Positions 10,733 through 32,034 of a stretch of DNA of 47,669 nucleotides are shown in pieces; position 1 is the stretch's first letter; each line of letters begins with the position of its first letter. The notes under the pieces were generated by a model, which ran no database searches, had not been told where the DNA came from, and worked only from the letters and a program-made list of their open reading frames with translations. Origin of the DNA: Hassallia byssoidea VB512170 (GTDB lineage Bacteria; Cyanobacteriota; Cyanobacteriia; Cyanobacteriales; Nostocaceae); NCBI RefSeq assembly GCF_000817785.2, contig NZ_JTCM02000049.1:1-47669 (forward strand), read 5' to 3'. A program made the position numbers and the translations under genes.

Positions 10733-10737
10733 TTAAG
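10733..10737. repeat. Target-site duplication, left copy (TTAAG)
   Basis: TTAAG immediately precedes the transposon terminus TGTACAGTGAC and is repeated at 32030-32034 right after the other end. Five-base duplications are the rule for Tn7/Tn5053-type DDE transposases. Confidence 0.93.
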
Positions 10738-10999: not shown

Positions 11000-12754
11000 A
11001 TGAACAGTCAGCAAAATCCTGATTTAGCTGTTCATACCTCAGCTATTCCTACAGAAGGCTTACAAGAAGAAAGCGATAAACCTCTTGAGAGGAATGTGAT
11101 TGTCACAGCACTCTCAGAGGAAGCCCAACTCAAGCTAGAGGTAATCCAAAGTTTGCTGGAAAAGAGCGATCGCACTACCTATGGGCAGAAGTTGAAAGAG
11201 GCTGCTGAAAAACTAAGTGTATCGGTGCGAACTGTGCAGCGATTAGTCAAAAAGTGGGAGCAAGATGGTGTAGTCGGATTTACTCAAACTGGCAGGGCTG
11301 ATAAAGGAAGGCATCGAATTGGTGAGTTTTGGGAAAACTTTATTCTCAAGACCTACCGGGAGGGTAACAAGGGTAGTAAACGCATGACCCCTAAACAAGT
11401 TGCTCTCAGAGTCCAGGCTAAAGCCCGTGAGTTGGAGGACTCTAAGCCACCGAATTACAGAACCGTTTTACGGGTACTAGCACCTGTATTAGAAAAGCAA
11501 GAAAAAGCCAAGAGTATCCGTAGCCCTGGATGGAGAGGAACTACACTTTCAGTTAAAACCCGTGAAGGAAAAGATTTATCTGTTGATTACAGTAACCATG
11601 TTTGGCAATGTGATCATACTCGTGTAGATGTTTTACTTGTGGATCAACATGGTCAACTGCTAAGTCGTCCCTGGCTAACAACGGTAATTGACACTTACTC
11701 TCGTTGCATTATGGGTATTAATTTGGGTTTTGATGCACCGAGTTCAGTGGTAGTGGCTTTAGCGTTACGCCATGCGATTTTACCCAAACAGTACGGTTCT
11801 GAGTACAAACTGCATTGCGAGTGGGGAACTTATGGGAAACCAGAACACTTTTATACTGATGGCGGTAAAGACTTTCGCTCCAACCACTTGAGTCAGATTG
11901 GAGCGCAGTTAGGGTTTGTCTGTCATTTACGCGATCGCCCTTCTGAAGGTGGAGTAGTAGAACGTCCTTTCAAAACATTGAATGACCAACTATTTTCAAC
12001 ACTTCCTGGATACACCGGATCTAATGTGCAGGAACGCCCAGAAGATGCGGAAAAGGACGCAAGGCTCACTCTGAGAGAACTAGAACAGCTACTTGTACGC
12101 TATCTCGTTGACCGCTACAACCAAAGTATTGATGCGCGAATGGGTGATCAAACTCGCTTTGAGCGTTGGGAAGCAGGATTGCCCACAGTACCAGTACCAA
12201 TACCAGAACGAGATTTGGATATCTGTTTAATGAAGCAGTCACGGCGCACTGTGCAAAGAGGTGGTTGCTTGCAGTTCCAGAACTTGATGTATCAAGGAGA
12301 ATATCTGGCAGGTTATGCCGGAGAAACTGTCAACTTAAGGTTTGACCCCAGAGACATTACAACAATTTTGGTTTATCGCCAGGAAAACAATCAGGAAGTA
12401 TTTCTGACCCGCGCTCACGCTCAAGGTTTGGAGACAGAGCAACTGGCATTAGATGAGGCTGAAGCTGCAAGTCGCAGACTCCGCACCGCAGGCAAAACTA
12501 TCAGTAACCAATCATTATTGCAAGAAGTTGTTGACCGCGATGCTCTTGTAGCAACCAAGAAAAGCCGTAAAGAGCGCCAAAAATTGGAACAGGCGGTTTT
12601 GCGATCTGCTGGGGTTGATGAAAGTAAAACTGAATCCTTGTCTTCCCAAGTAGTTGAACCAGATGAAGTGGAATCTACTGCTGAGATTAACTCTCAATAC
12701 GAAGACATGGAAGTGTGGGACTATGAACAACTTCGTGAAGAATACGGGTTTTAA
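11000..12754 (+). CDS. tnsB: TnsB-like DDE transposase of the type V-K CAST
   Basis: Cuts and joins the transposon ends. It has 584 residues: N-terminal DNA-binding helix-turn-helix segments (about 55-165; KEAAEKLSVSVRTVQRLVKK), an RNase H-fold catalytic core with D205 (WQCDHTRVD), D287 (FYTDGGKDF) and E321 (GVVERPF), a beta-barrel region, and an acidic C-terminal tail ending in YEQLREEYGF, which in this family contacts TnsC. The three catalytic residues are at the spacing expected of an active enzyme. The ATG at 11000 is 50 bp after the last left-end site. The stop is 3 bp before tnsC, so the three transposition genes form an operon. There is no TnsA, as in all V-K elements, so co-integrate products are expected. 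Confidence 0.97.
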   Translation: MNSQQNPDLAVHTSAIPTEGLQEESDKPLERNVIVTALSEEAQLKLEVIQSLLEKSDRTTYGQKLKEAAEKLSVSVRTVQRLVKKWEQDGVVGFTQTGRADKGRHRIGEFWENFILKTYREGNKGSKRMTPKQVALRVQAKARELEDSKPPNYRTVLRVLAPVLEKQEKAKSIRSPGWRGTTLSVKTREGKDLSVDYSNHVWQCDHTRVDVLLVDQHGQLLSRPWLTTVIDTYSRCIMGINLGFDAPSSVVVALALRHAILPKQYGSEYKLHCEWGTYGKPEHFYTDGGKDFRSNHLSQIGAQLGFVCHLRDRPSEGGVVERPFKTLNDQLFSTLPGYTGSNVQERPEDAEKDARLTLRELEQLLVRYLVDRYNQSIDARMGDQTRFERWEAGLPTVPVPIPERDLDICLMKQSRRTVQRGGCLQFQNLMYQGEYLAGYAGETVNLRFDPRDITTILVYRQENNQEVFLTRAHAQGLETEQLALDEAEAASRRLRTAGKTISNQSLLQEVVDRDALVATKKSRKERQKLEQAVLRSAGVDESKTESLSSQVVEPDEVESTAEINSQYEDMEVWDYEQLREEYGF

Positions 12755-12757
12755 ACA

Positions 12758-13588
12758 ATGACAGAAGCGAGTGCGATCGCCAAGCAGTTGGGTGGGGTAA
12801 AACCGGATGATGAGTGGTTGCAAGCTGAAATTGCTCGTCTCAAGGGTAAGAGCATTGTGCCGTTACAGCAGGTAAAAACTCTCCATGATTGGTTAGATGG
12901 CAAGCGCAAAGCACGGCAATCCTGTCGAGTAGTAGGGGAATCACGGACTGGCAAGACAGTTGCCTGTGATGCCTATAGGTACAGGCACAAGCCACACCAA
13001 GAAGTTGGGCGACCTCCGATTGTGCCTGTAGTTTATATTCAGCCTCCGCAAAAATGCGGCTCTAAGGATTTATTCAAGGAGATGATTGAGTACCTCAAGT
13101 TTCGGGCAACAAAGGGAACTGTTTCTGATTTTCGTGGGAGGGCGATGGAGGTACTTAAAGGGTGTGAGGTAGAAATGCTGATTATTGATGAAGCCGATCG
13201 CCTCAAACCTGAGACGTTTGCTGAAGTGCGAGATATTTATGACAAGTTAGGAATTGCTGTGGTATTGGTGGGAACAGATCGCTTGGAAGCGGTAATCAAA
13301 CGGGATGAACAAGTTTATAACCGCTTTCGGGCTTGTCATCGCTTCGGCAAGTTATCAGGGAAAGATTTCCAAGATACTGTGCAAGCCTGGGAAGATAGGG
13401 TTTTGAAACTGCCTGTCTCTTCTAATTTAACTAGCAAGGATATGCTGCGGATTCTCACATTGGCAACTGAAGGTTACATTGGTCGGCTGGATGAGATTCT
13501 CAGGGAAACTGCGATTCGTTCTTTATCGAAGGGATTTAAGAAGATTGATAAGGCTGTTTTACAAGAAGTGGCGAAAGAGTATAAGTAA
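12758..13588 (+). CDS. tnsC: TnsC-like AAA+ ATPase
   Basis: Forms ATP-dependent filaments on target DNA that connect the Cas12k-TniQ complex to TnsB. It has 276 residues with Walker A GESRTGKT (60-67), Walker B LIIDEAD (141-147) and a sensor-type VLVGTDRLE. It is small compared with TnsC of Tn7, as is normal for V-K systems. It begins 3 bp after tnsB, and its stop overlaps the tniQ start by one base (TAATG), implying translational coupling. Confidence 0.97.
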   Translation: MTEASAIAKQLGGVKPDDEWLQAEIARLKGKSIVPLQQVKTLHDWLDGKRKARQSCRVVGESRTGKTVACDAYRYRHKPHQEVGRPPIVPVVYIQPPQKCGSKDLFKEMIEYLKFRATKGTVSDFRGRAMEVLKGCEVEMLIIDEADRLKPETFAEVRDIYDKLGIAVVLVGTDRLEAVIKRDEQVYNRFRACHRFGKLSGKDFQDTVQAWEDRVLKLPVSSNLTSKDMLRILTLATEGYIGRLDEILRETAIRSLSKGFKKIDKAVLQEVAKEYK

Positions 13589-14091
13589 TGACAGCACCAG
13601 ATGTTAAGCCTTGGCTTTTTATTATAGAACCCTATCCTGGGGAAAGCCTGAGTCATTTTCTCGGTCGGTTTAGACGTGCTAACCATTTATCTGCTGCTGG
13701 GTTGGGTAATCTAGCTGGGATTGGTGCTGTAGTGGCACGGTGGGAAAGATTTCATTTTAACCCTCGCCCTAGTCAGCAAGAATTGGAAGCGATCGCATCT
13801 GTAGTAGAGGTAGATGCAGACAGGTTAGCTCAAATGCTGCCACCTTTGGGAGTTGGAATGCAGCATGAGCCAATCCGCCTGTGTGGGGCTTGTTATGCTG
13901 TAACACCTTGTCACCAAATTGAATGGCAGTTTAAGGAAATGGGAGGATGCAATCGCCATAATTTGCGTTTACTGTCCAAGTGTCCCAAGTGTGAAGATAG
14001 GTTTAAAATACCTGCTTTATGGGAGTATGGACTTTGTGGCAGGTGTAGAACACCCTTTGCTGAAATGGCTGAGTGCCAAAAGAGGATTTGA
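13588..14091 (+). CDS. tniQ: TniQ target-selection protein
   Basis: Short 167-residue TniQ that bridges Cas12k and TnsC. The N-terminal part has the TniQ signature PYPGESLSHFLGRFRRAN and a helix-turn-helix-like stretch. The C-terminal half has zinc-finger pairs C99-x2-C102, C132-x2-C135 and C150-x2-C153, with C121 and H124 between them. V-K TniQ proteins are consistently this short. The gene closes the tnsBC-tniQ operon, and cargo begins about 65 bp later. Confidence 0.95.
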   Translation: MTAPDVKPWLFIIEPYPGESLSHFLGRFRRANHLSAAGLGNLAGIGAVVARWERFHFNPRPSQQELEAIASVVEVDADRLAQMLPPLGVGMQHEPIRLCGACYAVTPCHQIEWQFKEMGGCNRHNLRLLSKCPKCEDRFKIPALWEYGLCGRCRTPFAEMAECQKRI

Positions 14092-14158
14092 GTCTTTGTC
14101 TTGTCGATTCAGCCTAAATAATTGAGAATGTAAAAATAAAGACTTAACCCTCTTGATA

Positions 14159-15073
14159 ATGAAGTGGTCTATATCTACCCATAATTGTTTTCGTAGGTGT
14201 CAAAAACAGTACTTCTTCAGCCAAACGATGGCATCTCACAATGCCAAAGATACTCTTCGTCGGGAAGCATTTATACTTAAACAGTTAAGTAGCCTTGATG
14301 AATGGCGAGGATCTCTAATTCACAAAGCTCTTGAAGAGTATCTAGCACCATCTTTACAAAAGCACCAAATCATCTCTGTTAATGAACTCATTGAGCAAAC
14401 AATTTCTTTGGCGAAAAAGCAGTTTGAATTTTCAAAACAGAAAAAGTATAGAGACGCTAATATCACTAAAAAAGCAGCAGGCAACTCATTTTTGGCTTTG
14501 CGAGACCACGAATATGATATCATAATCCCTCAAATATTTATTGATGATTTATATAAACAAATAAAGCAGTGTTATGAATATTTATATTCTCAAGAAAGAT
14601 TCATTCAATTTTTACAGCAAGGAAATGATTATTTTACCGAGTGTTTAATACAATTTAATATTCATAATTGTCCGGTTTCAGCTAAATTAGATTTAGTAAT
14701 GAATTACGGGAAAAATAAGTTGTGTATTATTGACTGGAAAATTAGTCGAAGCAAAACTAGTGATTATTCCAAGCAGTTAAATATATATGCTCTAGCAGCT
14801 TTAAATAGATGGAAATGGAAAAAATATAATCCAGAAGATTTATTACTAGTTGAAGCTAATATTTTTCAAGGTAAGCTAACGAAACATTATGTGAATGAAG
14901 ACAGCATAAATACTATAGATAATTTTATTTATCAAAGCATTTCACAAATAAAAGCTTTATCTAGTGATAATAAATATAATCTCGATAATCTAGAGGATTA
15001 TGATTATGCGAATAGTAATTTATCTTGTGAATATTGTAATTTTCAACAAATCTGTGTGAGGCTCACTTCATGA
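14159..15073 (+). CDS. Cas4/RecB-like PD-(D/E)XK nuclease with probable iron-sulfur cluster
   Basis: Predicted DNA nuclease of 304 residues. Visible are the N-terminal cysteines C10 and C14 (HNCFRRCQKQYFF), a RecB-motif histidine H55 in GSLIHKALEE, the catalytic D178 (AKLDLV), D192-x-K194 (CIIDWKIS), Q206 in the QLNIYALA motif, and the C-terminal trio C290, C293, C299 (CEYCNFQQIC). One N-terminal plus three C-terminal cysteines is the 4Fe-4S layout of Cas4/AddB-type nucleases. A TTG at 14153 would add two residues, but the ATG at 14159 is preferred. It overlaps the next gene by 4 bp (ATGA), so the nuclease and Argonaute are co-translated. It is unlikely to serve CRISPR adaptation because no cas1 or cas2 is present. 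Confidence 0.88.
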   Translation: MKWSISTHNCFRRCQKQYFFSQTMASHNAKDTLRREAFILKQLSSLDEWRGSLIHKALEEYLAPSLQKHQIISVNELIEQTISLAKKQFEFSKQKKYRDANITKKAAGNSFLALRDHEYDIIIPQIFIDDLYKQIKQCYEYLYSQERFIQFLQQGNDYFTECLIQFNIHNCPVSAKLDLVMNYGKNKLCIIDWKISRSKTSDYSKQLNIYALAALNRWKWKKYNPEDLLLVEANIFQGKLTKHYVNEDSINTIDNFIYQSISQIKALSSDNKYNLDNLEDYDYANSNLSCEYCNFQQICVRLTS

Positions 15074-17460
15074 CGAATCACGTTCTAAATTTATTTGCCA
15101 TCAAAAATTTATCTGAACTATCCTATAAGTACAGATTGTTGGAAGTCACTAAACTTCCACATAAAAATAAAAACTACCTCGAAAATCTTCATCGATTAGC
15201 TGGAATGGTTGCATCTTCATTATGCAAACCTGTTTGTCTATATTGGCAAGGAAACAAAGTCTACCTTGCTACTACTGAGCTTACAAAGGATATAAAAACA
15301 GAATGGCGTTTAATTCCGCACGTAGCAGTTCTTGTACCAGATTCCAATATCTATGAACTGAATTTTAGTGATATTACTCCTCATCAAATCAAGTTAGCAC
15401 TTAGACTGTTAAGCTATAATATTCGCTCCGCTTTAATAAAAGTACCAGAAATTTGGAATGATAGCTATGGCTCATTTTATTTTCGAGAAGCTATCAATGC
15501 AGGAGATGATAGCCAAGTCGATGTATTACGAGGCTTTGTTTATCGTCTTCACTATTTAGCGGATAAAAATATTTATATATCCTTAGATACAACAATCCGT
15601 TATGTAGATAGAATATCTCTTTGGGCGCGTGTAATTAATGGTGAAGATGTAAATCATTACAGAATGCACCATTTTCTCTATAAATTTGGCGTTCAATGGT
15701 ATCGAATACAATTTTTAGCTTCTACAGATTACTGTATTAGTGAACAAATCTTTTATTCTGAAAGAGATAAGAAAACTTATAATGTGTATGATTACACGAA
15801 AAAATTTGCGACTGCTTCTGAGTTAGAAATTACCACACAAGTAGATCCAAATTCAATAGCTATTGTTTACCAATATCCTTATAAAAATCTAGAAAGATAT
15901 GGAGCATCTGATTTATGTTACAAAACCTATAAAACTAATGATCAAAAAGTGGCAAAATTGCATACTTATTCCATTTTAAAGCCAATAGACAGATTAGAAA
16001 AAAGCAAAGAACTGATAGATAAATACTTTCAGAATATTGATTTGGGCAATAATTTTAAATTAGTCATACCCGCAGAACCTTTAGAAAAAAATATAGATAA
16101 GTTTGAAATACCTGATTTAATTTTTGGTAATAATAAAATCTTACACATTAACAGAAATGATGAAAACACAGGAATAAATATTCAAGATTATGGAAAAACT
16201 AGGTTGAAATTATTACTAGAGAAAGAAGCGGGATTATTAACTAGAGATGCACTTCAAGTTCAGTATATATTTATACCTAAATCTATACATCGCTCTATTG
16301 CTCAGAAGTTTCAAGAGGATTTTGAGTATCAAATGGGGAAATTTTTTCCCCATTCTTACAAATTTAAAAAAATAATCTATGATGACCAAAAAGCCAAAAA
16401 CTTGCGCCAGCAAGTAGAAGTTATTAAAGGAGAAGTAGAGAAGAATGAAATTGATAGAGGTTGTGCTTTATTAATACTACCAGAGAACGCACACTCTGAT
16501 TTCCATAATTTTATTAAAAGAGAATTGTATGAAACTTTGCAGTTTCAATGTGTGGATGCAGGTAATGTAAAGAAGTTCTTCCTATCAAAAAATAATGAAT
16601 ATCAAATAAATGAAAATCCAAAACAAAAACAAAGGTATTTCTCTTATATACGGTTTACAGCTTTAGGAATGCTGTTGGTTAATCGTCAATGGCCTTTTGC
16701 TCTCAAAGATTCTCTGTATTATGAAGTATATATAGGAATTGATGTACTCAATAATTATGCAGGATTTACTTATATATACAATGGGGGAAAAGATTGCTAT
16801 TTTCGTCCATATCCATCTGCTCAGGGAGAAAAACTTACAGAAAGACAAATTCTGAGCATACTAAAGAAAGATTTACAGAAAGATATTAACTCTCTAGATT
16901 TGCACCCGAAATCAATTATCATTCATCGAGATGGGCGAAGTTATATAGAAGAATATCAGGGATTTATCAAGGCAATTAATACTTTACAGCAAGAAGGATT
17001 TTTAGTAAAAGATGTTCAGGTAGGAGTAATAGAAATTCACAAAACCAGTTCATCACGTTTACGGTTGTACTATAAGCAAACGAACGAACCAAGTAATACT
17101 GTAGAAAATCCTAGTATCGGTGACTACTTTATAATTAATAATGCAGAAGGCATTGTCTGTACAACTGGATGGCCATTTAATTTTTCAGGTACAGCGAATC
17201 CATTACATATTAAAATTGCATATAGCAATTTAGAGTTAGATATAACACAGGCACTCAATGATGTCTTTAGCCTATCACAATTGGGGGCTTGGGCTGCCCC
17301 TGACAAATCTGCTCGATATCCCGCTACTATAAAATTAGGAGATACTTTCCTGGAACCTATAGCTAGTGAGTCTGATGATGAAGCTGCTCTTTATAGTGAA
17401 GATGAGCCTGATGAAGAGGAAAGAGGTACGTATTTAACTGATGAAGATGAAGATGAATAA
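15070..17460 (+). CDS. Long prokaryotic Argonaute (pAgo), probably catalytically active
   Basis: Predicted guide-directed nuclease of 796 residues. The C-terminal third is a PIWI domain: YIGIDV with D558, a glutamate-finger candidate E587 (AQGEKLTE; E591 is an alternative), D621 in IIIHRDGR, and D745 in a WAAPDKSARYPATIKLGD end block. D558-D621 (63) and D558-D745 (187) are close to the spacings in active long pAgos such as those of Pyrococcus and Thermus. The preceding 350-540 region fits a MID domain, and the N-terminal half fits N and PAZ-like parts but is not recognisable by eye. The extreme C-terminus is a very acidic tail (DEDEDE), which is unusual because PIWI domains normally end near their hydrophobic terminus. 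The gene lies between the nuclease and two unknown genes. It is strongly AT-rich compared with the tns genes, so probably acquired separately. The guide type cannot be deduced. Confidence 0.85.
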   Translation: MTNHVLNLFAIKNLSELSYKYRLLEVTKLPHKNKNYLENLHRLAGMVASSLCKPVCLYWQGNKVYLATTELTKDIKTEWRLIPHVAVLVPDSNIYELNFSDITPHQIKLALRLLSYNIRSALIKVPEIWNDSYGSFYFREAINAGDDSQVDVLRGFVYRLHYLADKNIYISLDTTIRYVDRISLWARVINGEDVNHYRMHHFLYKFGVQWYRIQFLASTDYCISEQIFYSERDKKTYNVYDYTKKFATASELEITTQVDPNSIAIVYQYPYKNLERYGASDLCYKTYKTNDQKVAKLHTYSILKPIDRLEKSKELIDKYFQNIDLGNNFKLVIPAEPLEKNIDKFEIPDLIFGNNKILHINRNDENTGINIQDYGKTRLKLLLEKEAGLLTRDALQVQYIFIPKSIHRSIAQKFQEDFEYQMGKFFPHSYKFKKIIYDDQKAKNLRQQVEVIKGEVEKNEIDRGCALLILPENAHSDFHNFIKRELYETLQFQCVDAGNVKKFFLSKNNEYQINENPKQKQRYFSYIRFTALGMLLVNRQWPFALKDSLYYEVYIGIDVLNNYAGFTYIYNGGKDCYFRPYPSAQGEKLTERQILSILKKDLQKDINSLDLHPKSIIIHRDGRSYIEEYQGFIKAINTLQQEGFLVKDVQVGVIEIHKTSSSRLRLYYKQTNEPSNTVENPSIGDYFIINNAEGIVCTTGWPFNFSGTANPLHIKIAYSNLELDITQALNDVFSLSQLGAWAAPDKSARYPATIKLGDTFLEPIASESDDEAALYSEDEPDEEERGTYLTDEDEDE

Positions 17461-17480
17461 AATAAGTGAGGTGAAAGATA

Positions 17481-17918
17481 ATGAGCGGAATTGGAATAAT
17501 TTCTCAAGAATACAAAAGTACCGCTAATTTGTTCAAAAATCTTAACGATTATATTATTCTGCTAAAAAAGCACCACTTTAAGCTACAGAGTGCAAATAAA
17601 ATAACGGATCAAGAAATTATTACGGCACGAAATTATCTTGCTAATATCTTAGGACAAATAGTTGCACAACTAAGTGACAGTAATGGAGTAGGGGAAAATG
17701 AACAAAATCCTTCTCAAGTACCACCCTTTTTTATTAAGCGTTTACAGGAACAACATAAAGGAGATATCTCTTGGTATAAAAATGATCTTGAAGAAGTTCA
17801 ACAGCGTCTAGTTGGCAATGAACCTCTAACAGAGAAGTTTATTGGTCATCTTGATGAACTATGTGAACAACTTGACGCTGAAACTACAAGGCTATATCGC
17901 AAATTGCGAAGAAGGTAG
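17481..17918 (+). CDS. Small helical protein of unknown function in the pAgo operon
   Basis: 145 residues, not recognised. It appears mostly alpha-helical with charged amphipathic stretches (LFKNLNDYIILLKKHHFKL; LDAETTRLYRKLRRR at the C-terminus), no membrane segment and no cysteines. It starts 20 bp after the Argonaute stop with a plausible AGGTGAAAG ribosome-binding site, and the next gene starts 9 bp after its stop, so it is part of the operon. It could be a partner or inhibitor of the neighbouring peptidase or Argonaute. That is speculation from position only. Confidence 0.75.
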   Translation: MSGIGIISQEYKSTANLFKNLNDYIILLKKHHFKLQSANKITDQEIITARNYLANILGQIVAQLSDSNGVGENEQNPSQVPPFFIKRLQEQHKGDISWYKNDLEEVQQRLVGNEPLTEKFIGHLDELCEQLDAETTRLYRKLRRR

Positions 17919-17927
17919 ATAAATTTT

Positions 17928-19073
17928 ATGATGTCACAATTTTTCTGCGGACAAGTAATGTTATTACTTAAACGTTGCCATAAATTAATTGAACATTTGA
18001 AAGATTTAAACAATTTACCAGAAGAATTTAAATTACATATTAACAATGTATCTACAGAATTAGAAAAATTAGCTTATGATATAGAGGAAATTATTAATGA
18101 TCCTGATTTTGGTGTAGAAATTCTACTAAAAAATCAAATTAACTCATATAGACGTTATGCAGAAGACGTAAATATTTTAGAAACATCTAAGATCACTTTA
18201 TTATATCATTTTAATAGAAAAGATTACTATTTTTATAAATTTGCTAAACTCTTTTGCGAGCAAGTAAATTACTCTTGTGAAGAGTATCCTTTAATCAGTA
18301 CTCACAGTTCAGATTATTTTTCTGCCCTTCCTATAGAAAATATAATTAATATTCCTTTATGTGAAGATAATTTTTTACTAGCTATACCAGATTTTGTACA
18401 TGAACTAGGGCATTTGGTATATAACTATTACGAAACAGAAATTACTCAACCTTTCTCAAAAATTCTATGTAAATACATTAAGGAACAAAGGGACATCCTA
18501 AAAAATAAAACCCCATCAAAAGCTTATCAAAATCATTTTAAGTTATTAGAGCAAACATGGTTACAGGAATATATAGTTGAGTTTTCTTGTGATATCTGTG
18601 CTACTTACTTAGTTGGTTCTGCATATGGCTGGTCTCATTTAAGATTGTTGCTGGAATCTGATCCAGAAATTTACTATCCAAGTTTTGGGCAAGAAGGAAG
18701 TCATCCTGCCGACGAAGCAAGAATGAGAGCAATTTTATTAACACTAGATGAACTTGGAGACTCTGAACAAGTAGAAAACATAACTCAAGAATGGGAATAT
18801 TTTAAGTTAATTCTAGTAGATTCGCCTGATGGAGAATATGAATACTGTTACCCAAATGAAATTTTACGGCAACTGGCTAAACAAGTGATAAAGGTATGGG
18901 AAAAAGTTGGTCTAGTTCCTTACTACAAGCAACCTGATAGTAAAGAGAATCTACCATTTCTTATGCGGAACGCATGGCAAAAATTTCATGATAACCCTAT
19001 AGAGTATACGAAATGGGAAACAAAGACAGTAACAGAGTTACAATCAGTTTTGTTAAAAAACACAAGTTATTAA
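17928..19073 (+). CDS. Putative zinc metallopeptidase (HELGH) in the pAgo operon
   Basis: 381 residues. H158-E-L-G-H162 (PDFVHELGHLVY) is a classical HExxH zinc site. A conserved-looking segment, EYIVEFSCDICATYL, about 55 residues later supplies E218 or D222 as third ligand, as in gluzincin-type peptidases, and a further block GSHPADEARMRAI lies near 257-269. The N-terminal 140 residues are helical and lack a signal peptide, so the enzyme should be cytoplasmic. It is the last gene of the operon (nuclease, pAgo, helical protein, peptidase). No family name can be given from memory. A proteolytic effector of the Argonaute system is an attractive but untested idea. Confidence 0.7.
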   Translation: MMSQFFCGQVMLLLKRCHKLIEHLKDLNNLPEEFKLHINNVSTELEKLAYDIEEIINDPDFGVEILLKNQINSYRRYAEDVNILETSKITLLYHFNRKDYYFYKFAKLFCEQVNYSCEEYPLISTHSSDYFSALPIENIINIPLCEDNFLLAIPDFVHELGHLVYNYYETEITQPFSKILCKYIKEQRDILKNKTPSKAYQNHFKLLEQTWLQEYIVEFSCDICATYLVGSAYGWSHLRLLLESDPEIYYPSFGQEGSHPADEARMRAILLTLDELGDSEQVENITQEWEYFKLILVDSPDGEYEYCYPNEILRQLAKQVIKVWEKVGLVPYYKQPDSKENLPFLMRNAWQKFHDNPIEYTKWETKTVTELQSVLLKNTSY

Positions 19074-19478: not shown

Positions 19479-19679
19479 TTACTTTAAAGCAGTCAAATCT
19501 TGTTGCTCTACCCCCACATTGAAAATCAGTGTAAAACTCACACTAGGAATGAGTCGGCGCAAAACTTGTAGATGAGCTTCTGCATCACTGCGGCGACGAA
19601 AACGAGCTACAATCTGGTTTTGCATATTAGGGAAAAGCCGGACTATACACCAAGGATTGAGCTTTTCAAGATAAGTCAT
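19479..19679 (-). CDS. Small conserved-looking protein, unknown function
   Basis: 66 residues: MTYLEKLNPWCIVRLFP, then RFRRRSDAEAHLQVLRRL, then beta-strand-like SVSFTLIFNV. The arrangement suggests a compact beta-alpha-beta fold, with the RRSDAEAH segment recalling small cyanobacterial proteins of unknown role. A CGGGAGAA ribosome-binding site precedes the ATG, and a hairpin at 19719-19744 lies in its leader. It may be part of a minus-strand group with 19783-20639. No function can be assigned. Confidence 0.55.
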   Translation of the reverse strand: MTYLEKLNPWCIVRLFPNMQNQIVARFRRRSDAEAHLQVLRRLIPSVSFTLIFNVGVEQQDLTALK

Positions 19680-19718
19680 GAAATTCTCCCGGTAAAATCT
19701 GTAATTTCTAAGACAAAA

Positions 19719-19744
19719 GCCAGCCTACTTTGATGGTGGCTGGC
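19719..19744 (-). promoter_or_regulatory. Leader hairpin (GCCAGCC/GGCTGGC)
   Basis: Seven-base arms GCCAGCC and GGCTGGC. On the minus strand the hairpin is followed by TTTTG, so it looks like an intrinsic terminator or attenuator 40 bp ahead of the 66-residue gene. It could end transcription from the gene upstream. A related hairpin is at 20668-20709. Confidence 0.55.
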
Positions 19745-19782
19745 AAGAAATATCATTTTGATATTGAAATTAGATTCAGTTT

Positions 19783-20085
19783 CTACTCACTTTCGTCTGG
19801 AAAACACAGCTTCTGCAATAGTTCTTCGGGAATCTCCTCAAAGTGTTCCAGCAAAAAGTTCATCAGCGCCAGGTGGCGTAAATCGGCTGGCATTGGACGG
19901 CGGTAGTTTTTACCTCTAGCAAACCAGCGGCGAACAGTGGAAAGGGAACGATCGCAAATCTGAGCCATTTGTTCGTGGTTTACCTGCCACTTGGTGTAAA
20001 ACTGCTTGGGAGTCATTCCCAATTGACAATAACTATAGAATTGCATCAAATCTTGCTCTCGCTGCTTGAGTGGATGAGGATTCAT
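19783..20085 (-). CDS. Helix-turn-helix protein, probable regulator
   Basis: From the ATG at 20085 the product has 100 residues (MNPHPLKQREQDLMQFYSYC). The frame is open upstream to 20148, but the start overlapping the previous stop (ATGA) and the sequence after it favour the shorter form. GMTPKQFYTKWQVNHEQMAQI followed by CDRSLSTVRRWFARG is a helix-turn-helix with a recognition helix, then a C-terminal helix (LEHFEEIPEELLQKL). Co-translated with the 20085-20639 gene. Likely a small DNA-binding protein. The target is unknown. Confidence 0.7.
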   Translation of the reverse strand: MNPHPLKQREQDLMQFYSYCQLGMTPKQFYTKWQVNHEQMAQICDRSLSTVRRWFARGKNYRRPMPADLRHLALMNFLLEHFEEIPEELLQKLCFPDESE

Positions 20086-20639
20086 CAGTGTGTCTCCTCG
20101 CTGATTGGTTCTAAATCTTCTTCCCAAGCAATATCGGCAGATGTCCAAGCAGCACTCTGGCTCTCTTTACTCAACCAAATCAGGTAGCACCAACTCCAGC
20201 AGCAGCGATCGCTAGAAAAGCTATAAAATCGACCTATGACAATACCCCAGTCAGTATCGCTTTCATTAGAGAGCCAACGCAAGCGATCGCCATATAAAAA
20301 TCTGGGTGTCTTCGCTACATGAGGAAAGTTGACAGGAAGCTCAATAGATGCATCTGGGCATTTCAGCTTAATCAAGCCTGGAACTATATCTTGGTTACTG
20401 TGCCGGATGAGATTGAGATAATTAGCGATCAACTTACCATTGATGCTGTGAGTTAACTGTGAAATCAGAATCGCAGCTAGACTTTCTATTTCTTGCGGCT
20501 GAAGTTGCATCCAAGTGCTATCAAAGTCTGGGTCAGAGTAGTTGTTGAGCTTTGCTAGTAATTCTGTGATGCCGAAATCATCTAAAGCTTGTTGATAAGC
20601 TCTGTGTTCGTCTGTTTTGTAGCTAACAGGCTTTAACAT
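20085..20639 (-). CDS. Hypothetical protein, unknown function
   Basis: 184 residues from the ATG at 20639 (MLKPVSYKTDEH); an in-frame upstream start at 20669 lies in the leader hairpin and is less likely because AGGAGA precedes the internal ATG. No family recognised. The C-terminal half is rich in Trp, Tyr and Cys (DRCCWSWCYLIWLSKES), with a preceding FLYGDRLRWLSNESDTDWG that resembles a small beta-barrel. It overlaps the helix-turn-helix gene by 3 bp (ATGA). The pair probably forms a unit with the following 66-residue gene. Confidence 0.7.
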   Translation of the reverse strand: MLKPVSYKTDEHRAYQQALDDFGITELLAKLNNYSDPDFDSTWMQLQPQEIESLAAILISQLTHSINGKLIANYLNLIRHSNQDIVPGLIKLKCPDASIELPVNFPHVAKTPRFLYGDRLRWLSNESDTDWGIVIGRFYSFSSDRCCWSWCYLIWLSKESQSAAWTSADIAWEEDLEPISEETH

Positions 20640-20667
20640 TGTATATGTCTCCTGTGATATGGGGGCC

Positions 20668-20709
20668 AAAAGCCAGCATCCGCCCTGAGAAAGTTGATGG
20701 CTGGCTTTT
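20668..20709 (-). promoter_or_regulatory. Leader hairpin (AAAAGCCAGC/GCTGGCTTTT)
   Basis: Ten-base perfect inverted arms 20668-20677 and 20700-20709 with a 22-base loop. It lies about 30 bp upstream of the ATG at 20639. The arms share GCCAGC and the ATGG/TGGC neighbourhood with the hairpin at 19719-19744. The T-rich side on each strand would let it act as a bidirectional terminator or an attenuator. Confidence 0.6.
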
Positions 20710-21174: not shown

Positions 21175-22884
21175 TCAGACTGTTAACACCTGCTTTGCTG
21201 CGACTTCCATCAGTTTCTCGCTGCTATCTCGCCCTTGTTTCAATCTGGCTTCTAGGGTATCGCAGAGAGACATCAGGCGATCGCACTTCTCTACAATGCG
21301 TTTTTGTTCAGCGAGGGGTGGAAGGACAATTTTTATTTCCTTAATTTTTCCTAGAAAAAGGTTTGCTTGTGCTGATGTCTTTGATTTTTCAATTATTTGA
21401 TTTTGCACGAATAAGGATCTCAGGGTATAGGCAAGGAATTCACTAATTACATAATCTTGAAATGGCTTAACCAAGGCTGCACTTCTCACCATTACATAAG
21501 TTTTATCTCTGTCTACAATTGCTACTCTGCCAACACTTCCTGAGCAAGAGATAAGGATGTCTCCTTTATTTGGATCGCATCTTTTTCTAATTCTTAGAAA
21601 TTCGTTTTCAGGAACATAATCAACATCATCTAGGGCAATTCCTTCATCTCTAACATTTCTAGCTGATAGAAGGTAGTAGCCGCTAGAAGCTCTTTGAGGG
21701 GTCAGGTGTTCTCCATCTGTGATTTTTGTTGAGATATCAGAGACATAACACCATTCCCACCCTTTTGGAATTACAAACGGTACAATATCTTCTTCAATTT
21801 TAGGTAAAGCTTTATCTTGTTTTATTTGTTTGCTTTTAATGAGTTGCTCTTTCTCACATTGAATATTTTTCAATAGAGTTAAAGCTGGTTCATCAATTGG
21901 ATCTTGAGGTACAAGTTTACCCTGCACAGCCAATTGCAAAATCGCCTGACGCAGTTTAGGAATTGTTTCAGGGATGCTGTAGAGTAAGTCAAAATTATTG
22001 CAAATGCGCTGCCAGTGTTGGCGGAATTCGTCGGGATTTTGGGAGGAGAGGAGTTGAGCGATCGCACTCTCATTCATCCTCACAATGCTCTCTTGCCTTT
22101 GCTGCTGTCGTTTTTCGATTTCGTCACAGGTTGAGAGGAGGCGATCGCACTTTTCTACAATCCGTTTTTGTTCTGCAAGCGGTGGTAAAGGAATAATTGC
22201 ATCAGCTATTCGTTTCAAAGCTAACTTAGGTTGAGCTTGCTGATTTGTTTTTTCTTTAAACTGACTTTGCACTATATTAGAGTTTAGAGCAGTAAGAAAA
22301 TATTTTTTATTTAATTCTTTGAATATAATTCTTGCTGCATTTTCGGTTAAGTTCATTTGATGGCAAAAATCAGGAACTTCTCCAACTTGTCCTATTGTAC
22401 CTGCAATAGAAATATATAAGTCTTCTTTCTCAATAATGTAATTTTTAATTGCTTGATATACATCCTCATCAATATACTTTAGCCCCTCATTTACAATAGT
22501 TCCATTCTTCATATTGGTAACTTGAATGTAAATATAGGGGGTTGTAATTATAGCAAATGAAGCTCCTTGAGGTAAACGTTTTCCACCTCTAACTAAAGCC
22601 ATTTCTCCAATACGAACCCACTTCCAGTTTTGAGGAATTTTATAGGGTTGTTCATCCAATTTAACGGGTAATACTTTTTCAAAACTTCTATATTTTTTCT
22701 CATCAATAAGTTTTGCTAACGTTTTTTGGGCTTCACTAACTAAAATACTGGCACATTCATCATCAGCTTGTTGTGAAAGTTTTCCGCATACTGACAATTG
22801 TAAAATGATTTCCCGTAACTTTCCGATTGCATTCGGTGCATCAGTCAACAATTCAAAATTCTGAAAAAACGTATCTACTTTCAT
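21175..22884 (-). CDS. hsdS: Type I restriction-modification specificity subunit HsdS
   Basis: Recognises the bipartite DNA target for the HsdR-HsdM complex. It has 569 residues with two target-recognition domains, each followed by the conserved LPPLAEQKRIVEKCDRL coiled-coil spacer (around 235-250 and 525-540). The two halves are roughly equal, so it appears intact. It overlaps the PIN toxin gene by 4 bp (ATGA) and is the last gene of the minus-strand set hsdR, hsdM, RAYT, antitoxin, toxin, hsdS. Its separation from hsdM by about 1.5 kb is unusual. The recognised sequence cannot be read from the protein. Confidence 0.95.
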   Translation of the reverse strand: MKVDTFFQNFELLTDAPNAIGKLREIILQLSVCGKLSQQADDECASILVSEAQKTLAKLIDEKKYRSFEKVLPVKLDEQPYKIPQNWKWVRIGEMALVRGGKRLPQGASFAIITTPYIYIQVTNMKNGTIVNEGLKYIDEDVYQAIKNYIIEKEDLYISIAGTIGQVGEVPDFCHQMNLTENAARIIFKELNKKYFLTALNSNIVQSQFKEKTNQQAQPKLALKRIADAIIPLPPLAEQKRIVEKCDRLLSTCDEIEKRQQQRQESIVRMNESAIAQLLSSQNPDEFRQHWQRICNNFDLLYSIPETIPKLRQAILQLAVQGKLVPQDPIDEPALTLLKNIQCEKEQLIKSKQIKQDKALPKIEEDIVPFVIPKGWEWCYVSDISTKITDGEHLTPQRASSGYYLLSARNVRDEGIALDDVDYVPENEFLRIRKRCDPNKGDILISCSGSVGRVAIVDRDKTYVMVRSAALVKPFQDYVISEFLAYTLRSLFVQNQIIEKSKTSAQANLFLGKIKEIKIVLPPLAEQKRIVEKCDRLMSLCDTLEARLKQGRDSSEKLMEVAAKQVLTV

Positions 22885-23303
22885 TTAAACGGATTCACAA
22901 TTTGTAATTGATTATCTACCACTAACCCATCCTGCATATCTTCAGAATAGAGAATACTTGCTCCCGCAGCTAAAGCACAAGCAACAATTAAACTATCCCA
23001 AAAAGAGAAATTATATCTACTACGAAGATTGGAAGAGTTCACCAAAATATCACGATTAAATGAAATAATGTGAGAACCTTTATAAAATGCCTCTATTAAC
23101 TGTGTTATTTGTTGCTCAGTAAAAGAAGATTTTTTAATTAGATTTAGACATACTTCATTAACAACTTGTGTACTAATGATTACCCCTTCAGCATCAACTA
23201 GACGACAAGCTATATTGCGTTTGTTAATATCTTGATTATTCGCTAGAGCATAAATCCAGATATTAGAATCCAGAAAATAGCCATTCTCATGAATTGCGGT
23301 CAT
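22881..23303 (-). CDS. PIN-domain protein, probable VapC-type toxin
   Basis: 140-residue PIN-domain ribonuclease. The acidic metal-binding residues are all present: D12 (YFLDSNIWIYAL), E50 (QVVNEVCLNLI), D103 (NFSFWDSLIVACA) and E121/D122 (YSEDMQDG). It overlaps the upstream antitoxin-like gene by 17 bp and the downstream hsdS by 4 bp. PIN toxins cut tRNA or rRNA when not neutralised. Coupling to hsdS suggests that loss of the whole cluster would be penalised, which is inference. Confidence 0.92.
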   Translation of the reverse strand: MTAIHENGYFLDSNIWIYALANNQDINKRNIACRLVDAEGVIISTQVVNEVCLNLIKKSSFTEQQITQLIEAFYKGSHIISFNRDILVNSSNLRSRYNFSFWDSLIVACALAAGASILYSEDMQDGLVVDNQLQIVNPFK

Positions 23304-23511
23304 AAATCTCTTCTCGGTTCAAAGGAGGCCATTCAAACTCCACCGGATGCTTTATGAGTTCAGCAATAATATCAACTGCTGCTGTTTTTCTAACTTTTTT
23401 CATAACAATTACTTTGACAGACTCCCCATCTAGCTCTCCTTTATAAATTTCAGGAATTTGAATTACACCATCTTTGACAATACCTTGAAATTCTACTACT
23501 TCCATCTGCAT
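23287..23511 (-). CDS. Antitoxin-like protein paired with the PIN toxin
   Basis: 74 residues (MQMEVVEFQGIVKDGVIQIP), with the second Met at 23505 an equally good start. The N-terminal beta pattern (FQGIVKDGVIQIPEIYKGEL, then VKVIVMKK) resembles small antitoxins linked to PIN toxins in cyanobacteria. The C-terminal FEWPPLNREEIYDRNS would bind the toxin. It lies directly upstream of and overlaps the toxin gene, the usual order of antitoxin before toxin. Confidence 0.82.
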   Translation of the reverse strand: MQMEVVEFQGIVKDGVIQIPEIYKGELDGESVKVIVMKKVRKTAAVDIIAELIKHPVEFEWPPLNREEIYDRNS

Positions 23512-23563
23512 AATCTAATCTCCAGATATTTTAAGATATTTTGTTTATCTGTATTATTCTATA

Positions 23564-23625
23564 GTAGGGGCGGGTTCACAAATAGTATCGAACATAAACG
23601 ATGATCTTGGTAAACCCGCCTTTAC
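23564..23625. repeat. REP palindrome 1
   Basis: Arms GTAGGGGCGGGTT and TAAACCCGCC/TTTAC around a variable loop. This is the most divergent of four related palindromes (others at 24065-24125, 24158-24219 and 24383-24444). It lies between the RAYT gene and the antitoxin gene. Confidence 0.85.
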
Positions 23626-23700
23626 TGTATATGTTGAAATCTCAACGATGATTTTTATGAACTTGCCCTTAAATATGTAATTATTATCCATCAAAATTAA

Positions 23701-24345
23701 TTACCATTTCGACGGATTATTTGGATGCAATTGATCTTGTTCCCAGGATAAATAATTGTTAATTATATATTCACGAATTTTTTGCAATGCTTCTTCCTTT
23801 CGTATAATATGTTCATAATAATTACGCTGCCAAACAGGTATACCTTTTGAGTCTCTCAACTGATTAATACGACGAGCAGAAGATGTTTTAAAATTTTGTA
23901 TTATTTCTGATAATGATTTATCTCCTGATTTGTTTAATTGAATTATTCCATGTATATGGTTAGGCATTATTACAAATTCATCTAACTGCACATTATTAAA
24001 CTTCTTAGCCAGAATATTCCAGTTATATTGAACTACTTGTCCATAACGACTTAATTTTATATAGGTAGGGGCAGGTTTATTGATATCATCGTTGAGATTT
24101 GATAATATTTGTGAACCTGCCCCCGTTTTATCCAATTCATCATTATCAATCACGGTTGTAGGGGCAGGTTTACCCGGATCGTCATTGGTGGTTGATAATA
24201 TTTGTGAACCTGCCCCTACCACGTTTCCTAATAGGCATTCACGTTGCCAAATACAAATGGTTATAAAATACATTCCTGCCTGTGTATAATCATAACCCTG
24301 TAACCGAATTGATCTACGATGATGTTTTTCTGGATTATATTTCAT
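23701..24345 (-). CDS. REP-associated tyrosine transposase (RAYT) with in-frame REP insertions
   Basis: Single-strand DNA transposase of the Y1/HUH family that acts on REP palindromes. It has 214 residues, starting MKYNPEKHHRRSIRLQGYDY with YFITICIWQREC, the HUH motif in MPNHIHGII (HIH), the catalytic tyrosine probably in NYYEHIIRKEEAL, and a C-terminal NNYLSWEQDQLHP. Between the first strand and the HUH block lie two copies of GAGSQILSxxNDDxxKPAPT, which are translations of REP2 and REP3 in frame. The gene stays open, so the protein may be functional with a long surface loop. It sits between hsdM and the toxin-antitoxin pair, separating hsdM from hsdS. Confidence 0.93.
   Translation of the reverse strand: MKYNPEKHHRRSIRLQGYDYTQAGMYFITICIWQRECLLGNVVGAGSQILSTTNDDPGKPAPTTVIDNDELDKTGAGSQILSNLNDDINKPAPTYIKLSRYGQVVQYNWNILAKKFNNVQLDEFVIMPNHIHGIIQLNKSGDKSLSEIIQNFKTSSARRINQLRDSKGIPVWQRNYYEHIIRKEEALQKIREYIINNYLSWEQDQLHPNNPSKW
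24065..24125. repeat. REP palindrome 2, inside the RAYT coding sequence
   Basis: Arms GTAGGGGCAGGTT and AACCTGCCCC. It is translated in frame on the minus strand as GAGSQILSNLNDDINKPAPT. Confidence 0.9.
24158..24219. repeat. REP palindrome 3, inside the RAYT coding sequence
   Basis: Arms GTAGGGGCAGGTT and AACCTGCCCCTAC, a near-perfect palindrome. It is translated in frame as VGAGSQILSTTNDDPGKPAP. Confidence 0.9.
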
Positions 24346-24382
24346 AATTTATATTATTAATTTATCATTGTAAATCGCAGAT

Positions 24383-24444
24383 GTAGGGGCGGGTTTATGA
24401 ATATTATCGTTGATAATTGAGCATATCTGTGAACCCGCCCCTAC
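24383..24444. repeat. REP palindrome 4, overlapping the hsdM stop codon
   Basis: Arms GTAGGGGCGGGTT and AACCCGCCCCTAC. The right arm contains the TAG stop of hsdM (24441-24443), so the REP seems to have landed at the very end of that gene or supplied its current stop. Confidence 0.88.
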
Positions 24445-25880
24445 CCATCACCCTCTAACGCTTCCATTAATTCAAATTTCAACTTATTCCGCACATCACC
24501 CAACTCTGCTATGAGTTTTTCATGCTCTGCTAACATCTCATCTAAATTAGCGTGTTCTACATCAACTTTGTGAGGATTTTTAATATCTAGATTGTAATTA
24601 TTCGCTTTCAAATCTGCAATTGAAACCTGCCAAGCAAATTCATTTTCCTCGCGGTTATCCCACCATTCTTGTTCCGGTGCAAATTCCTCAAAGCGAATTG
24701 GTTTAGTTTTTGAGTAAGACTTATAACCTGCTGGGTAAGGGTGTTCATAATACCAAATCGTTTCTGTTGGTTCACCTTTAGTGAAAAATAGCAGATTAGT
24801 TTTAATACCTGTGTAGGGATTAAATACACCATTTGGTAAGCGAACAATTGTATGAAGGTTACAATCTTGCAGCAGTTTTTCTTTAATCCGCGTTTTCACA
24901 CCTTCCCCAAACAGTGTTCCATCTGGTAAAACTATTGCCCCTCTACCACCTTCTTTGAGTAAATGAGCAATCAGCACCAGAAATAAATCTGCCGTTTCTC
25001 GTGTGCGGAACGTAGTGGGAAAATTGTCCTCAATGCCATCTTCTTCCATCCCACCAAAAGGCGGATTAGTGATAATTACATCCACCCGTTCTTGAGGACT
25101 GTAATCGCGCAGTGGTCGTGCCAAAGTGTTATCATGTTCCGCTTCCGGCACATCAATACCATGTAAAATCAAATTCGTCACGCAAAGGTTATAAGGTAAC
25201 GGCTTTTTCTCAGTACCGCGAATCGTCCGTTGCAGAATTTCTGGAACATCAGCACTTTGAAAATGTTGGCGAATGTAATCAATAGCTGCTGTTAAAAAGC
25301 CACCTGTACCGCAAGCTGGGTCAAATACAATTTCGCCTAATTGCGGCTTGATTCTATCAACAATAAACTTTGTCACCGCACGGGGAGTATAATATTCTCC
25401 CGCATTACCCGCACTCTGCAAATCTTTGAGAATCTTCTCGTAAATTTCGCTGAACTGCTTTTTCTGCTCTTTTTTATTAAAATCAACTTCGTTGAGCTTA
25501 TTAATTACTTGGCGGATGAGAGTGCCATTTTTCATATAGTTGTAGGCATCCTCAAACACCTTACCAATCATCTGCCCACGCGCATCAGTTGCCGTAGTTC
25601 TCAGTTCTTTGAGAGTTTTAAATAAAGCATTATCTACAAAATCTAGTAAAGCATCTCCAGTCATACCTTCTGCATCTGCTGCCCAGTTACGCCAACGCAA
25701 CCCTTCAGGAATCGGAGATTTATAATTATCCTCTAGCAGTTCATATTCTTCTTCACGGGCATCAAAAACCTTGAGGAATATCATCCAAACTAACTGGTTA
25801 ATGCGTTGCGCGTCGCCATCAACGCCCGCATCCTTCCGCATGATATCTTGAATAGTTTTAATTGTAGTGCTGATTGACAT
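24441..25880 (-). CDS. hsdM: Type I restriction-modification methyltransferase HsdM
   Basis: N6-adenine DNA methyltransferase of the type I complex, 479 residues. It has the N-terminal helical HsdM domain (MSISTTIKTIQDIMRKDAG, FLKVFD), AdoMet motif I DPACGTGGF (187-195) and catalytic NPPF (272-275). The C-terminal coiled coil ends abruptly in LMEALEGDG at the REP palindrome. The length is normal for this subtype. It starts 68 bp after hsdR. There are no disrupted motifs, so methylation should be functional. Confidence 0.96.
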   Translation of the reverse strand: MSISTTIKTIQDIMRKDAGVDGDAQRINQLVWMIFLKVFDAREEEYELLEDNYKSPIPEGLRWRNWAADAEGMTGDALLDFVDNALFKTLKELRTTATDARGQMIGKVFEDAYNYMKNGTLIRQVINKLNEVDFNKKEQKKQFSEIYEKILKDLQSAGNAGEYYTPRAVTKFIVDRIKPQLGEIVFDPACGTGGFLTAAIDYIRQHFQSADVPEILQRTIRGTEKKPLPYNLCVTNLILHGIDVPEAEHDNTLARPLRDYSPQERVDVIITNPPFGGMEEDGIEDNFPTTFRTRETADLFLVLIAHLLKEGGRGAIVLPDGTLFGEGVKTRIKEKLLQDCNLHTIVRLPNGVFNPYTGIKTNLLFFTKGEPTETIWYYEHPYPAGYKSYSKTKPIRFEEFAPEQEWWDNREENEFAWQVSIADLKANNYNLDIKNPHKVDVEHANLDEMLAEHEKLIAELGDVRNKLKFELMEALEGDG

Positions 25881-25948
25881 AATATGAGACTGCGATCGCC
25901 GATTGGCACGATTAACCTAGAAGAGAAATCATATCCTATTCCAGGATG

Positions 25949-28402: not shown

Positions 28403-28879
28403 TTAGCTACTAAAGCTTTTAAGATTGTCCCTTAATTGTTGATGCACGCGATCGCACCAAAATGGAATCACAGTTTGTCCTTGACAAAGGGCTTCTAGGG
28501 CAGCTTGTTTATCAAACTCTGCCATTTGCAAAGGTTGTTCATGCGATGGCGAAACGCCCACCTTCGGTGATCGCGTGGGTAATAACATTAGCCGCTTCAT
28601 CTTTTCTTCGGGGACAGACTCATCAAATAACCAAGGTTCCCGTTCGCGCAGTGTTTCCAATGCTGCATGGCAAACCTCAAAATTTAAACCGATTGACAGC
28701 AACTGTTCCATTACCGTTAACGCCAACAGATCAGCTTTGGAGTAGTAAACATTACGACCTTTACCACTACTGTTAACCGTAGGTACTATAACTCCCTTCT
28801 CCCGCCAATACTGCAACTGACGGCGAGAGCAATGAGTAATTTCTGCAGCTTCGGTGCTTGTGTAGAACTTTCCTTCCAT
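28403..28879 (-). CDS. cvkR: MerR-type regulator adjacent to cas12k (CvkR-like)
   Basis: Transcription regulator of the CAST. From the ATG at 28879 it has 158 residues: MEGKFYTSTEAAEITHCSRRQ begins a MerR winged helix with LQYWREKGVIVPTVNSSGKG, followed by a dimerisation region and a C-terminal EALCQGQTVIPFWCDRVHQQ. The frame stays open upstream to 28981, but that would overlap the cas12k start and cover the promoter. V-K CASTs commonly have this divergent regulator next to cas12k; in Anabaena it is known as CvkR, a repressor of cas12k. The DNA of its last 120 bases recurs at 19311-19437. The ligand, if any, is unknown. Symbol by analogy. Confidence 0.85.
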   Translation of the reverse strand: MEGKFYTSTEAAEITHCSRRQLQYWREKGVIVPTVNSSGKGRNVYYSKADLLALTVMEQLLSIGLNFEVCHAALETLREREPWLFDESVPEEKMKRLMLLPTRSPKVGVSPSHEQPLQMAEFDKQAALEALCQGQTVIPFWCDRVHQQLRDNLKSFSS

Positions 28880-32029: not shown

Positions 32030-32034
32030 TTAAG
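32030..32034. repeat. Target-site duplication, right copy (TTAAG)
   Basis: Identical to 10733-10737 and directly abutting the right terminus. Confidence 0.93.

Follow-up and report, generated by a model that had tools for sequence, protein, structure and literature searches.

The window considered here is a 47,669-nucleotide stretch of DNA from the cyanobacterium Hassallia byssoidea VB512170 (NZ_JTCM02000049.1, one draft contig out of 219). At positions 14159-19073, it carries four genes in close succession, which a sequence-only reading had interpreted as a Cas4/RecB-like nuclease, a long prokaryotic Argonaute (pAgo), a small helical protein and a peptidase with an HELGH motif, carried together as cargo of a CRISPR-associated transposon (CAST). 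We analyzed this operon by using protein-family profiles, structure models and homology searches in genome, plasmid and viral sequences. The four genes recur as a set in three phyla, and the copy in the window lies within an intact type V-K CAST.

The four genes and their products

The four open reading frames (ORFs), all on the forward strand, are intact and spaced exactly as the sequence-only reading had described: genes 1 and 2 overlap by 4 bp, genes 2 and 3 are 20 bp apart, and genes 3 and 4 are 9 bp apart. A leader (14092-14158, forward strand) begins at the first base past the stop codon of the transposon gene tniQ. Gene 1 (14159-15073) starts with ATG, with an alternative TTG 6 bp upstream, and the TIOX110 homologue begins with the identical residues MKWSIS. 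Its product is a Cas4-like nuclease of the PD-(D/E)xK type, as had been proposed, matching Pfam PDDEXK_1 with 61.8 bits (cut-off 22) and the PADLOC model Aga_Cas4-like_Nuc with 202.3 bits. It is not a CRISPR Cas4 proper, as the PADLOC models for that protein gave at most 15.5 bits. Residues D178, D192-W-K194 and Q206, together with cysteines C14, C290, C293 and C299, are invariant in all nine aligned rows, and the four cysteines presumably hold an iron-sulfur cluster. A search of the Protein Data Bank (PDB) with the Cas4-like profile returned a single weak match (9iac, E 0.01).

Gene 2 (15070-17460) encodes a full-length class II pAgo of 796 amino acids. The PADLOC model pAgo_II matches it with 521.6 bits, and Pfam Piwi scores 27.6 bits, about one bit below the cut-off of 28.9. 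Among solved structures, 8xih and 9wmd (each E about 5e-115) as well as PliAgo (7r8f, E 6e-71) align with the protein end to end, so that the PIWI domain expected in this ORF is present. The catalytic tetrad D558/E587/D621/D745, also named from the sequence beforehand, is invariant in all seven aligned rows, the window included. Genes 1 and 2 thus both match class II pAgo entries of PADLOC strongly; genes 3 and 4 match none of its models, and Pfam, PHROGs and NCBIfam gave no usable family for them either.

Gene 3 (17481-17918) encodes 145 amino acids with a basic C-terminal tail. Its structure model is helical (predicted local distance difference test, pLDDT, 83.4), in line with the earlier description. 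Gene 4 (17928-19073) encodes a protein of 381 amino acids whose HELGH sequence belongs to an M48-like set of motifs: H158ExxH162, E218xxCD222 and H259-PxxxxR265 are invariant in 10 of 10 aligned rows. The order HExxH, ExxxD, HPxxxxR is that of the M48 metallopeptidases, among them those of the HtpX and Ste24 types, and a search of the same genome with PF01435 turned up eight M48 proteins that share it with gene 4. In profile comparisons with these proteins, a peptidase profile that takes in two relatives without pAgo (A9) scored 94.1% (E 1.3e-7), and one made from the operon set (A5) scored 87.0% (E 4e-6) over 55 columns that do not include the HExxH part; nine control pairs scored 2.7% or less. 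Gene 4 and its operon relatives differ from M48 proteins in giving no match to Pfam M48 (gene 4 and six aligned relatives), and the AlphaFold model of gene 4 is mostly helix (pLDDT 81.3). Pfam M78, the ImmA family, does not match gene 4 either, and a PDB search with the peptidase profile found three matches at noise level only. We consider it very likely that gene 4 is a catalytic peptidase.

Relatives of this peptidase were also seen without a pAgo. One of them (genome G613, L038:6932-8839) has a dCTP-deaminase domain (Pfam DCD, 104.6 bits) as its fusion partner, with no pAgo in the 16 kb of sequence around it. dCTP deaminases are a type of enzyme used in phage defense, and the peptidase family may serve several defense systems. 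At L037:5611-8281, a peptidase-like protein of 405 amino acids adjoins an ORF that looks similar by eye and has no HExxH, possibly as an active/inactive pair.

Conservation of the four-gene set

Plasmids were searched by using tblastn (E 1e-5) in 72,556 records. Gene 1 and gene 4 each match five records; the pAgo matches 10, five of them over 80% or more of the query. The nuclease, full-length pAgo and peptidase are found in the same five plasmids (TIOX110, Runella, Rhizobium, Spirosoma and Emticicia), so every high-coverage pAgo match is accompanied by the other operon genes. In each plasmid, the order is nuclease, pAgo, a protein of 118-145 amino acids, and peptidase. The other five pAgo matches are weak and partial and come from haloarchaea.

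Cyanobacterial genomes were searched with peptidase profiles in three samples: a draw at order level (388 genomes), the family (217 genomes, E 1e-10) and a draw at class level (388 genomes). The order draw gave 10 hits, and the five strong ones (E 1e-23 or better: G000, the Hassallia genome itself, and G294, G449, G590 and G672) all lie in the operon. The family search gave five hits (G000, G294, G961, G970 and G1023), of which G970 and G1023 have all four genes; that in G961 was counted as the same Calothrix contig as locus L002. Searches with the pAgo covered a phylum-level draw of 386 cyanobacterial genomes and 99 near relatives, the Hassallia genome included. Full-length pAgos were found in two genomes of the phylum draw, both together with the other operon genes and one of them being the TIOX110 copy (L003), and 14 other genomes had weak pAgo matches with no partner genes in the 2-4 kb around them. 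Among the 99 near relatives, only the Hassallia genome has the full-length pAgo, which is thus rare. A scan of genome contigs with a single protein yielded one relative, in Calothrix, so the spread beyond cyanobacteria rests on the plasmid records.

When one locus is counted per organism, there are 11 complete operons, the window among them, and in all 11 the four genes have the same order and direction; the recommended search for the same four genes elsewhere thus yielded 10 further complete sets, and three phyla are represented in all. The Calothrix copy has genes 2-4. Its pAgo frame does not open until about residue 108, no more than 130 bp from where the contig stops; gene 1 is therefore not visible, and the pAgo is perhaps truncated. 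The stop codon of gene 3 overlaps the start of gene 4 or lies at most 9 bp from it in 9 of 10 operons measured (G672, with 117 bp, is the exception), which suggests that the two genes are a coupled pair.

The genes upstream of the operon vary. Helix-turn-helix (HTH) genes stand at the head of the Runella operon (L004) and of L005 (both annotated), of L034 (HTH_3, 51.2 bits) and of L035 (by eye), and an annotated sigma-70 gene heads the Spirosoma/Emticicia pair (L006 and L007); the window, L003 and L036 have no regulator gene directly upstream. Such regulators could be the business of the peptidase, which together with the small protein would then regulate or mature the system by cutting a repressor, an anti-sigma factor, the small protein or a precursor of a partner, leaving all of the work to the nucleases. 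Cleavage of ImmR by ImmA is a model for regulator proteolysis of this kind, and the regulator genes at operon heads make it plausible here, as does the close spacing of genes 3 and 4. However, gene 4 has no M78 match, and the peptidase is kept in the three operons lacking an upstream regulator, so a regulator cannot be its sole substrate. On balance, we regard a purely regulatory or maturing role as possible but rather unlikely. Because regulators differ among operons, they look optional, with the four genes as the core. The small protein and the peptidase, judged by their conservation, thus behave as core members of the pAgo operon, and this part is new.

The transposon and its cargo

The window carries, at 10738-32029, an intact type V-K CAST of 21,292 bp with the pAgo operon as cargo; of this we are virtually certain. 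The element begins with TGTACAGTGACT and ends with AGTCACTGTACA, and its right end, up to 32029, is the reverse complement of the left end from 10738. It is flanked by two copies of the 5-bp target-site duplication TTAAG (10733-10737 and 32030-32034). Its core proteins are TnsB (11000-12754, forward strand; Pfam Mu-transpos_C, 71.7 bits), the TniB-type AAA ATPase TnsC (12758-13588, forward; Pfam TniB, 118.1 bits), TniQ (13588-14091, forward; 35.5 bits, cut-off 27) and Cas12k (28961-30880, forward; NCBIfam V_Cas12k, 975.6 bits, cut-off 150). A CRISPR array of seven repeats with a spacing of 70-73 (31317-31791, forward) is followed by a delocalized unit (31838-31871, forward) made of a partial, degenerate repeat and a 17-nucleotide spacer (31855-31871). 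All 17 nucleotides of the spacer match a protospacer on the reverse strand (32073-32089) in the adjacent tRNA-Leu gene, with GTT on the side of the protospacer-adjacent motif (PAM), and 60 bp separate the PAM-side end of the protospacer from the right transposon end. A GTN PAM and an insertion distance of about 60 bp are characteristic of type V-K CASTs. The empty site is seen in a congeneric genome (G001), where the left flank runs up to C23:60199, the right flank resumes at 60201 and the sequence is continuous. In G002 and G003, a single contig holds both flanks, with about 0.1 and 0.5 kb between them; in G004, they are on separate contigs.

Because the window is a single draft contig, the arrangement could be suspected of being an artefact of assembly or annotation. 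The target duplication, matched ends, guide match, empty site and four intact reading frames make this extremely improbable, and the predicted carriage of the operon as CAST cargo is confirmed. Like known type V-K CASTs, the element has TnsB, TnsC and TniQ, Cas12k, a CRISPR array whose delocalized short spacer targets a tRNA, and a 5-bp duplication; it differs from them in having an Argonaute in its cargo. A survey of Tn7-like cargo mentions neither Argonaute nor pAgo in its main text (PMC8649781), and among the matches listed, open-access titles and abstract openings contain no Argonaute as CAST cargo.

Evidence that the operon came to the CAST as a unit begins with its best DNA relative, an Aphanizomenonaceae plasmid (CP150887.1) that covers window positions 14092-19050 with 89.3% identity. 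The block of homology starts immediately behind the tniQ stop codon, at the very next base, and no CAST core protein was found in 42 kb of that plasmid. The G+C content of the operon is 0.315 versus 0.455 for tnsB-tniQ, which fits import. In the CAST of genome G558, whose Cas12k is the closest other full-length one among the matches listed (83%), a DNA-methyltransferase-like ORF and another large ORF follow tniQ directly (L045:16619-19989, by eye). The position behind tniQ may therefore be a point of cargo exchange, which is the simplest account of where the operon sits.

Since the operon adjoins CAST genes, starting directly after the tniQ stop, one might also imagine that the two are functionally linked, for example with CAST guides or integration intermediates feeding the pAgo. 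We searched for Cas12k in the order-level draw of 388 genomes (E 1e-30) and found it in 102. Profiles for the pAgo, generic pAgos, the Cas4-like nuclease and the peptidase recovered the window as a positive control and had no match in 46 stretches representing 43 other Cas12k loci. Cas12k is present in 44 of these stretches and all four CAST core proteins in 24; several are truncated at contig ends, and the rest may lack some of the cargo. Conversely, no CAST core protein was found in the stretches around any of the other ten complete operons or around the copy in Calothrix, and G590, which holds both Cas12k and the operon, has them on different contigs. With the different cargo of the G558 CAST also speaking against it, we rejected the functional link as very unlikely. 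The combination that had been called striking, a guided nuclease system moved by an RNA-guided transposon, is thus supported as regards transport; as a link, it is a one-off among the loci sampled and looks like rare exchange of an unusual operon as ordinary cargo, not a CAST partnership.

A viral origin was likewise considered and discarded: no relative was confirmed in viral contigs scanned with profile A1, and phage records gave one weak partial match that covers 31% of the query. Six of the 12 known copies are on plasmids or in the window CAST, five of those six having come from the search of plasmid records. That the operon is a self-contained defense operon, moving horizontally and gained whole by the CAST, is a reading to which we give about even weight.

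The remaining cargo lies downstream. A module of two small ORFs (19783-20148 and 20085-20669) at 19479-20704 on the reverse strand is 87.8% identical to a Brasilonema octagenarum plasmid and is a separate imported piece. Next to it, also on the reverse strand, is a type I restriction-modification system (21175-28282: HsdS, 21175-22884; HsdM, 24441-25880; HsdR, 25949-28282); between hsdS and hsdM (22881-24345) lie a weakly matching VapC-like gene (21.4 bits) and one for a REP-associated tyrosine transposase. Beside cas12k is a gene for a MerR-like regulator (28403-28981, reverse strand; CueR model, 28.2 bits, below the cut-off of 147.4), which by its position would occupy the place of CvkR. An Rfam scan at the gathering threshold found tRNA only, no model specific to trans-activating CRISPR RNA having been made. 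Elsewhere in the same genome, a 118-amino-acid Cas12k match (G000:C134:9441-9794) is perhaps a remnant of another CAST.

Relation to DNA-guided, RNA-cutting Argonautes and possible roles

The association of pAgos with Cas4-like nucleases was rightly described as known. Operons of DNA-guided, RNA-cutting (D-R) pAgos have been published with a nuclease and an HTH or sigma gene; DNA-guided RNA cutting was demonstrated for PliAgo and RslAgo, these pAgos are reported to cut DNA weakly if at all, and defense is offered as speculation about their role (PMC9360449). The words peptidase and protease do not occur in the main text of that article, where genes 3 and 4 go unnamed, although downstream genes may be drawn in its Fig. 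1b or supplements. Cas4 orthogroups in pAgo operons are also described in PMC6299218, again with no peptidase or protease in the main text, and no pAgo-peptidase operon appears among the matches listed from open-access titles and abstract openings. The four-gene set had been thought new as a whole. The pAgo-nuclease part is already published; what looks new is the small protein and the peptidase as core parts, and a copy on a CAST, found once among the loci sampled.

Like the D-R operons of PliAgo, RslAgo, PnyAgo and HpeAgo, the window has a homologous long pAgo with the DEDD tetrad and an upstream PD-(D/E)XK nuclease related to Cas4, and it differs from them in lying inside a CAST. RslAgo (WP_013921749.1), 27% identical to the gene 2 product, is itself the pAgo of the Runella locus, whose operon has the same four genes. 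In a tree of ten pAgos, from which PnyAgo itself was left out, the window, TIOX110 and Calothrix form a group joined to the Spirosoma/Emticicia pair (support 94/95), and Runella, Rhizobium and G449 form another (support 100/99); G590 and G672 are deep, on long branches that meet, and their placement is unsure. The MID pocket of D-R pAgos is reported as either HKQK or RHSY (PMC9360449). In our own alignment, three pocket residues of the window, H479/K483/Q493, resemble the PnyAgo type, with A479/C483 in PliAgo. By eye, HxxxK..Q is present in the window, TIOX110, Calothrix, Spirosoma and Emticicia, as in the PnyAgo group, and the H and K are missing in Runella, Rhizobium and G449, as in PliAgo. 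By its sequence, the window pAgo is related to the D-R class and so probably cuts RNA with DNA guides.

We think it highly probable that the operon serves in defense, on account of defense-type neighbors, listed here with no enrichment test behind them. Multiubiquitin, ThiF and DUF6527 genes lie beside L004 and L006, a phospholipase of a cyclic-oligonucleotide-based antiphage signaling system (CBASS) adjoins L005, a restriction subunit is near L007, and type III-B genes are 15-18 kb from the L003 operon. Next to the G970 operon (L142:3679-8237) are ORFs that by eye look patatin-like and nucleotidyltransferase-like, as in CBASS, and the window operon shares its CAST with the type I restriction-modification system. 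The defense might be directed at competing mobile elements, so that the operon guards its carrier CAST or plasmid by silencing other plasmids and transposons and has little effect on phages. The plasmid and CAST locations of half of the known copies fit this idea, as does the report that, in Synechococcus elongatus, RSF1010 plasmids are restricted by SeAgo and a Cas4-like nuclease (PMC10653904). SeAgo, however, is a different kind of pAgo, and the weak DNA cutting of D-R pAgos (PMC9360449) speaks against the idea. Moreover, some neighbors are anti-phage genes, and other copies lie beside housekeeping genes (by eye, ATP synthase genes at L002 and transketolase- and FabF-like ORFs at L036). We consider a role confined to competition among mobile elements unlikely.

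Our best reading, for which we see the case as evenly poised, is a mobile defense operon that pairs guided RNA recognition with a dedicated protease. The Cas4-like iron-sulfur nuclease would act on the DNA of an invading replicon, either trimming it to guides or degrading it. The pAgo, with its intact tetrad, would load DNA guides and cut transcripts of the invader, as its tested relatives suggest. Least certain is a dedicated proteolytic arm made up of the small helical protein and the M48-like peptidase, whose genes form a tightly spaced pair: pAgo activity might switch this arm on to cut a protein target, leading to shutdown of the cell or release of an activity. Placing the putative peptidase action downstream of the pAgo is tentative, at somewhat less than an even chance. 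More doubtful still is the full proposal of an Argonaute-controlled protease, in which the DNA-guided pAgo, on recognizing invader RNA, switches on the M48-like peptidase through the small protein, as part of an ancient four-gene core that predates the split of the known D-R groups and is here spreading in an RNA-guided transposon.

Several observations weigh against this pairing of guided recognition with a protease. With three more members in the alignment, the first three tetrad residues hold in all 10 rows, and the fourth is D in eight. The two exceptions are the most divergent pAgos, with S in G590 and N in G672, which hints that the set does not always depend on slicing, whereas the peptidase motifs are constant in 10 rows. 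These two pAgos (L035:11276-13702 and L036:10468-12846) have the same operon layout as the others. A lysine conserved in D-R pAgos, K759 in PliAgo (PMC9360449), corresponds to A743 in the window, and of 10 rows just L004 and L034 have a lysine there; this mapping is uncertain because it is one off the published numbering. The window also differs from D-R operons in having tniQ directly upstream in place of the HTH gene of the PliAgo group or the sigma-70 gene of the PnyAgo group. Gene 3 is poorly conserved: in L035, its position is taken by a 166-amino-acid ORF that a seven-row profile did not pick up, and the later match there rests on a profile that includes that ORF. By Foldseek, the gene 3 model has no significant PDB relative (best E 0.4), and the gene 4 model has no significant match in the PDB (best E 0.31) or among viral models. 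Fifteen distant peptidase relatives scored 95.4% against A5 and only 39.9% against M48. Finally, co-occurrence counts depend on the choice of search, because most cyanobacterial operons were found with the peptidase as query; none of the five weak peptidase hits in the order draw (E 3e-7 to 1e-4) has a pAgo in the surrounding 15-16 kb (three hits) or about 3 kb (two hits), and the class draw gave G000 and 15 weak relatives, none of the 15 with a pAgo in a locus of about 3 kb.

With a metallopeptidase and a small helical partner present across phyla, the role of D-R Argonautes becomes a question about four genes, each of which can be tested in turn. The CAST shows that an RNA-guided transposon can carry such a system in one piece, and the module has clean borders for cloning. 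Craspase and other CRISPR proteases are activated by guides. If the window peptidase is switched by guided recognition, they would be its functional analogues, with no common protein family shown, and the operon would be the Argonaute counterpart of these guide-activated proteases. Guided recognition of nucleic acids would then be coupled to proteolysis outside CRISPR, if the peptidase indeed answers to the Argonaute.

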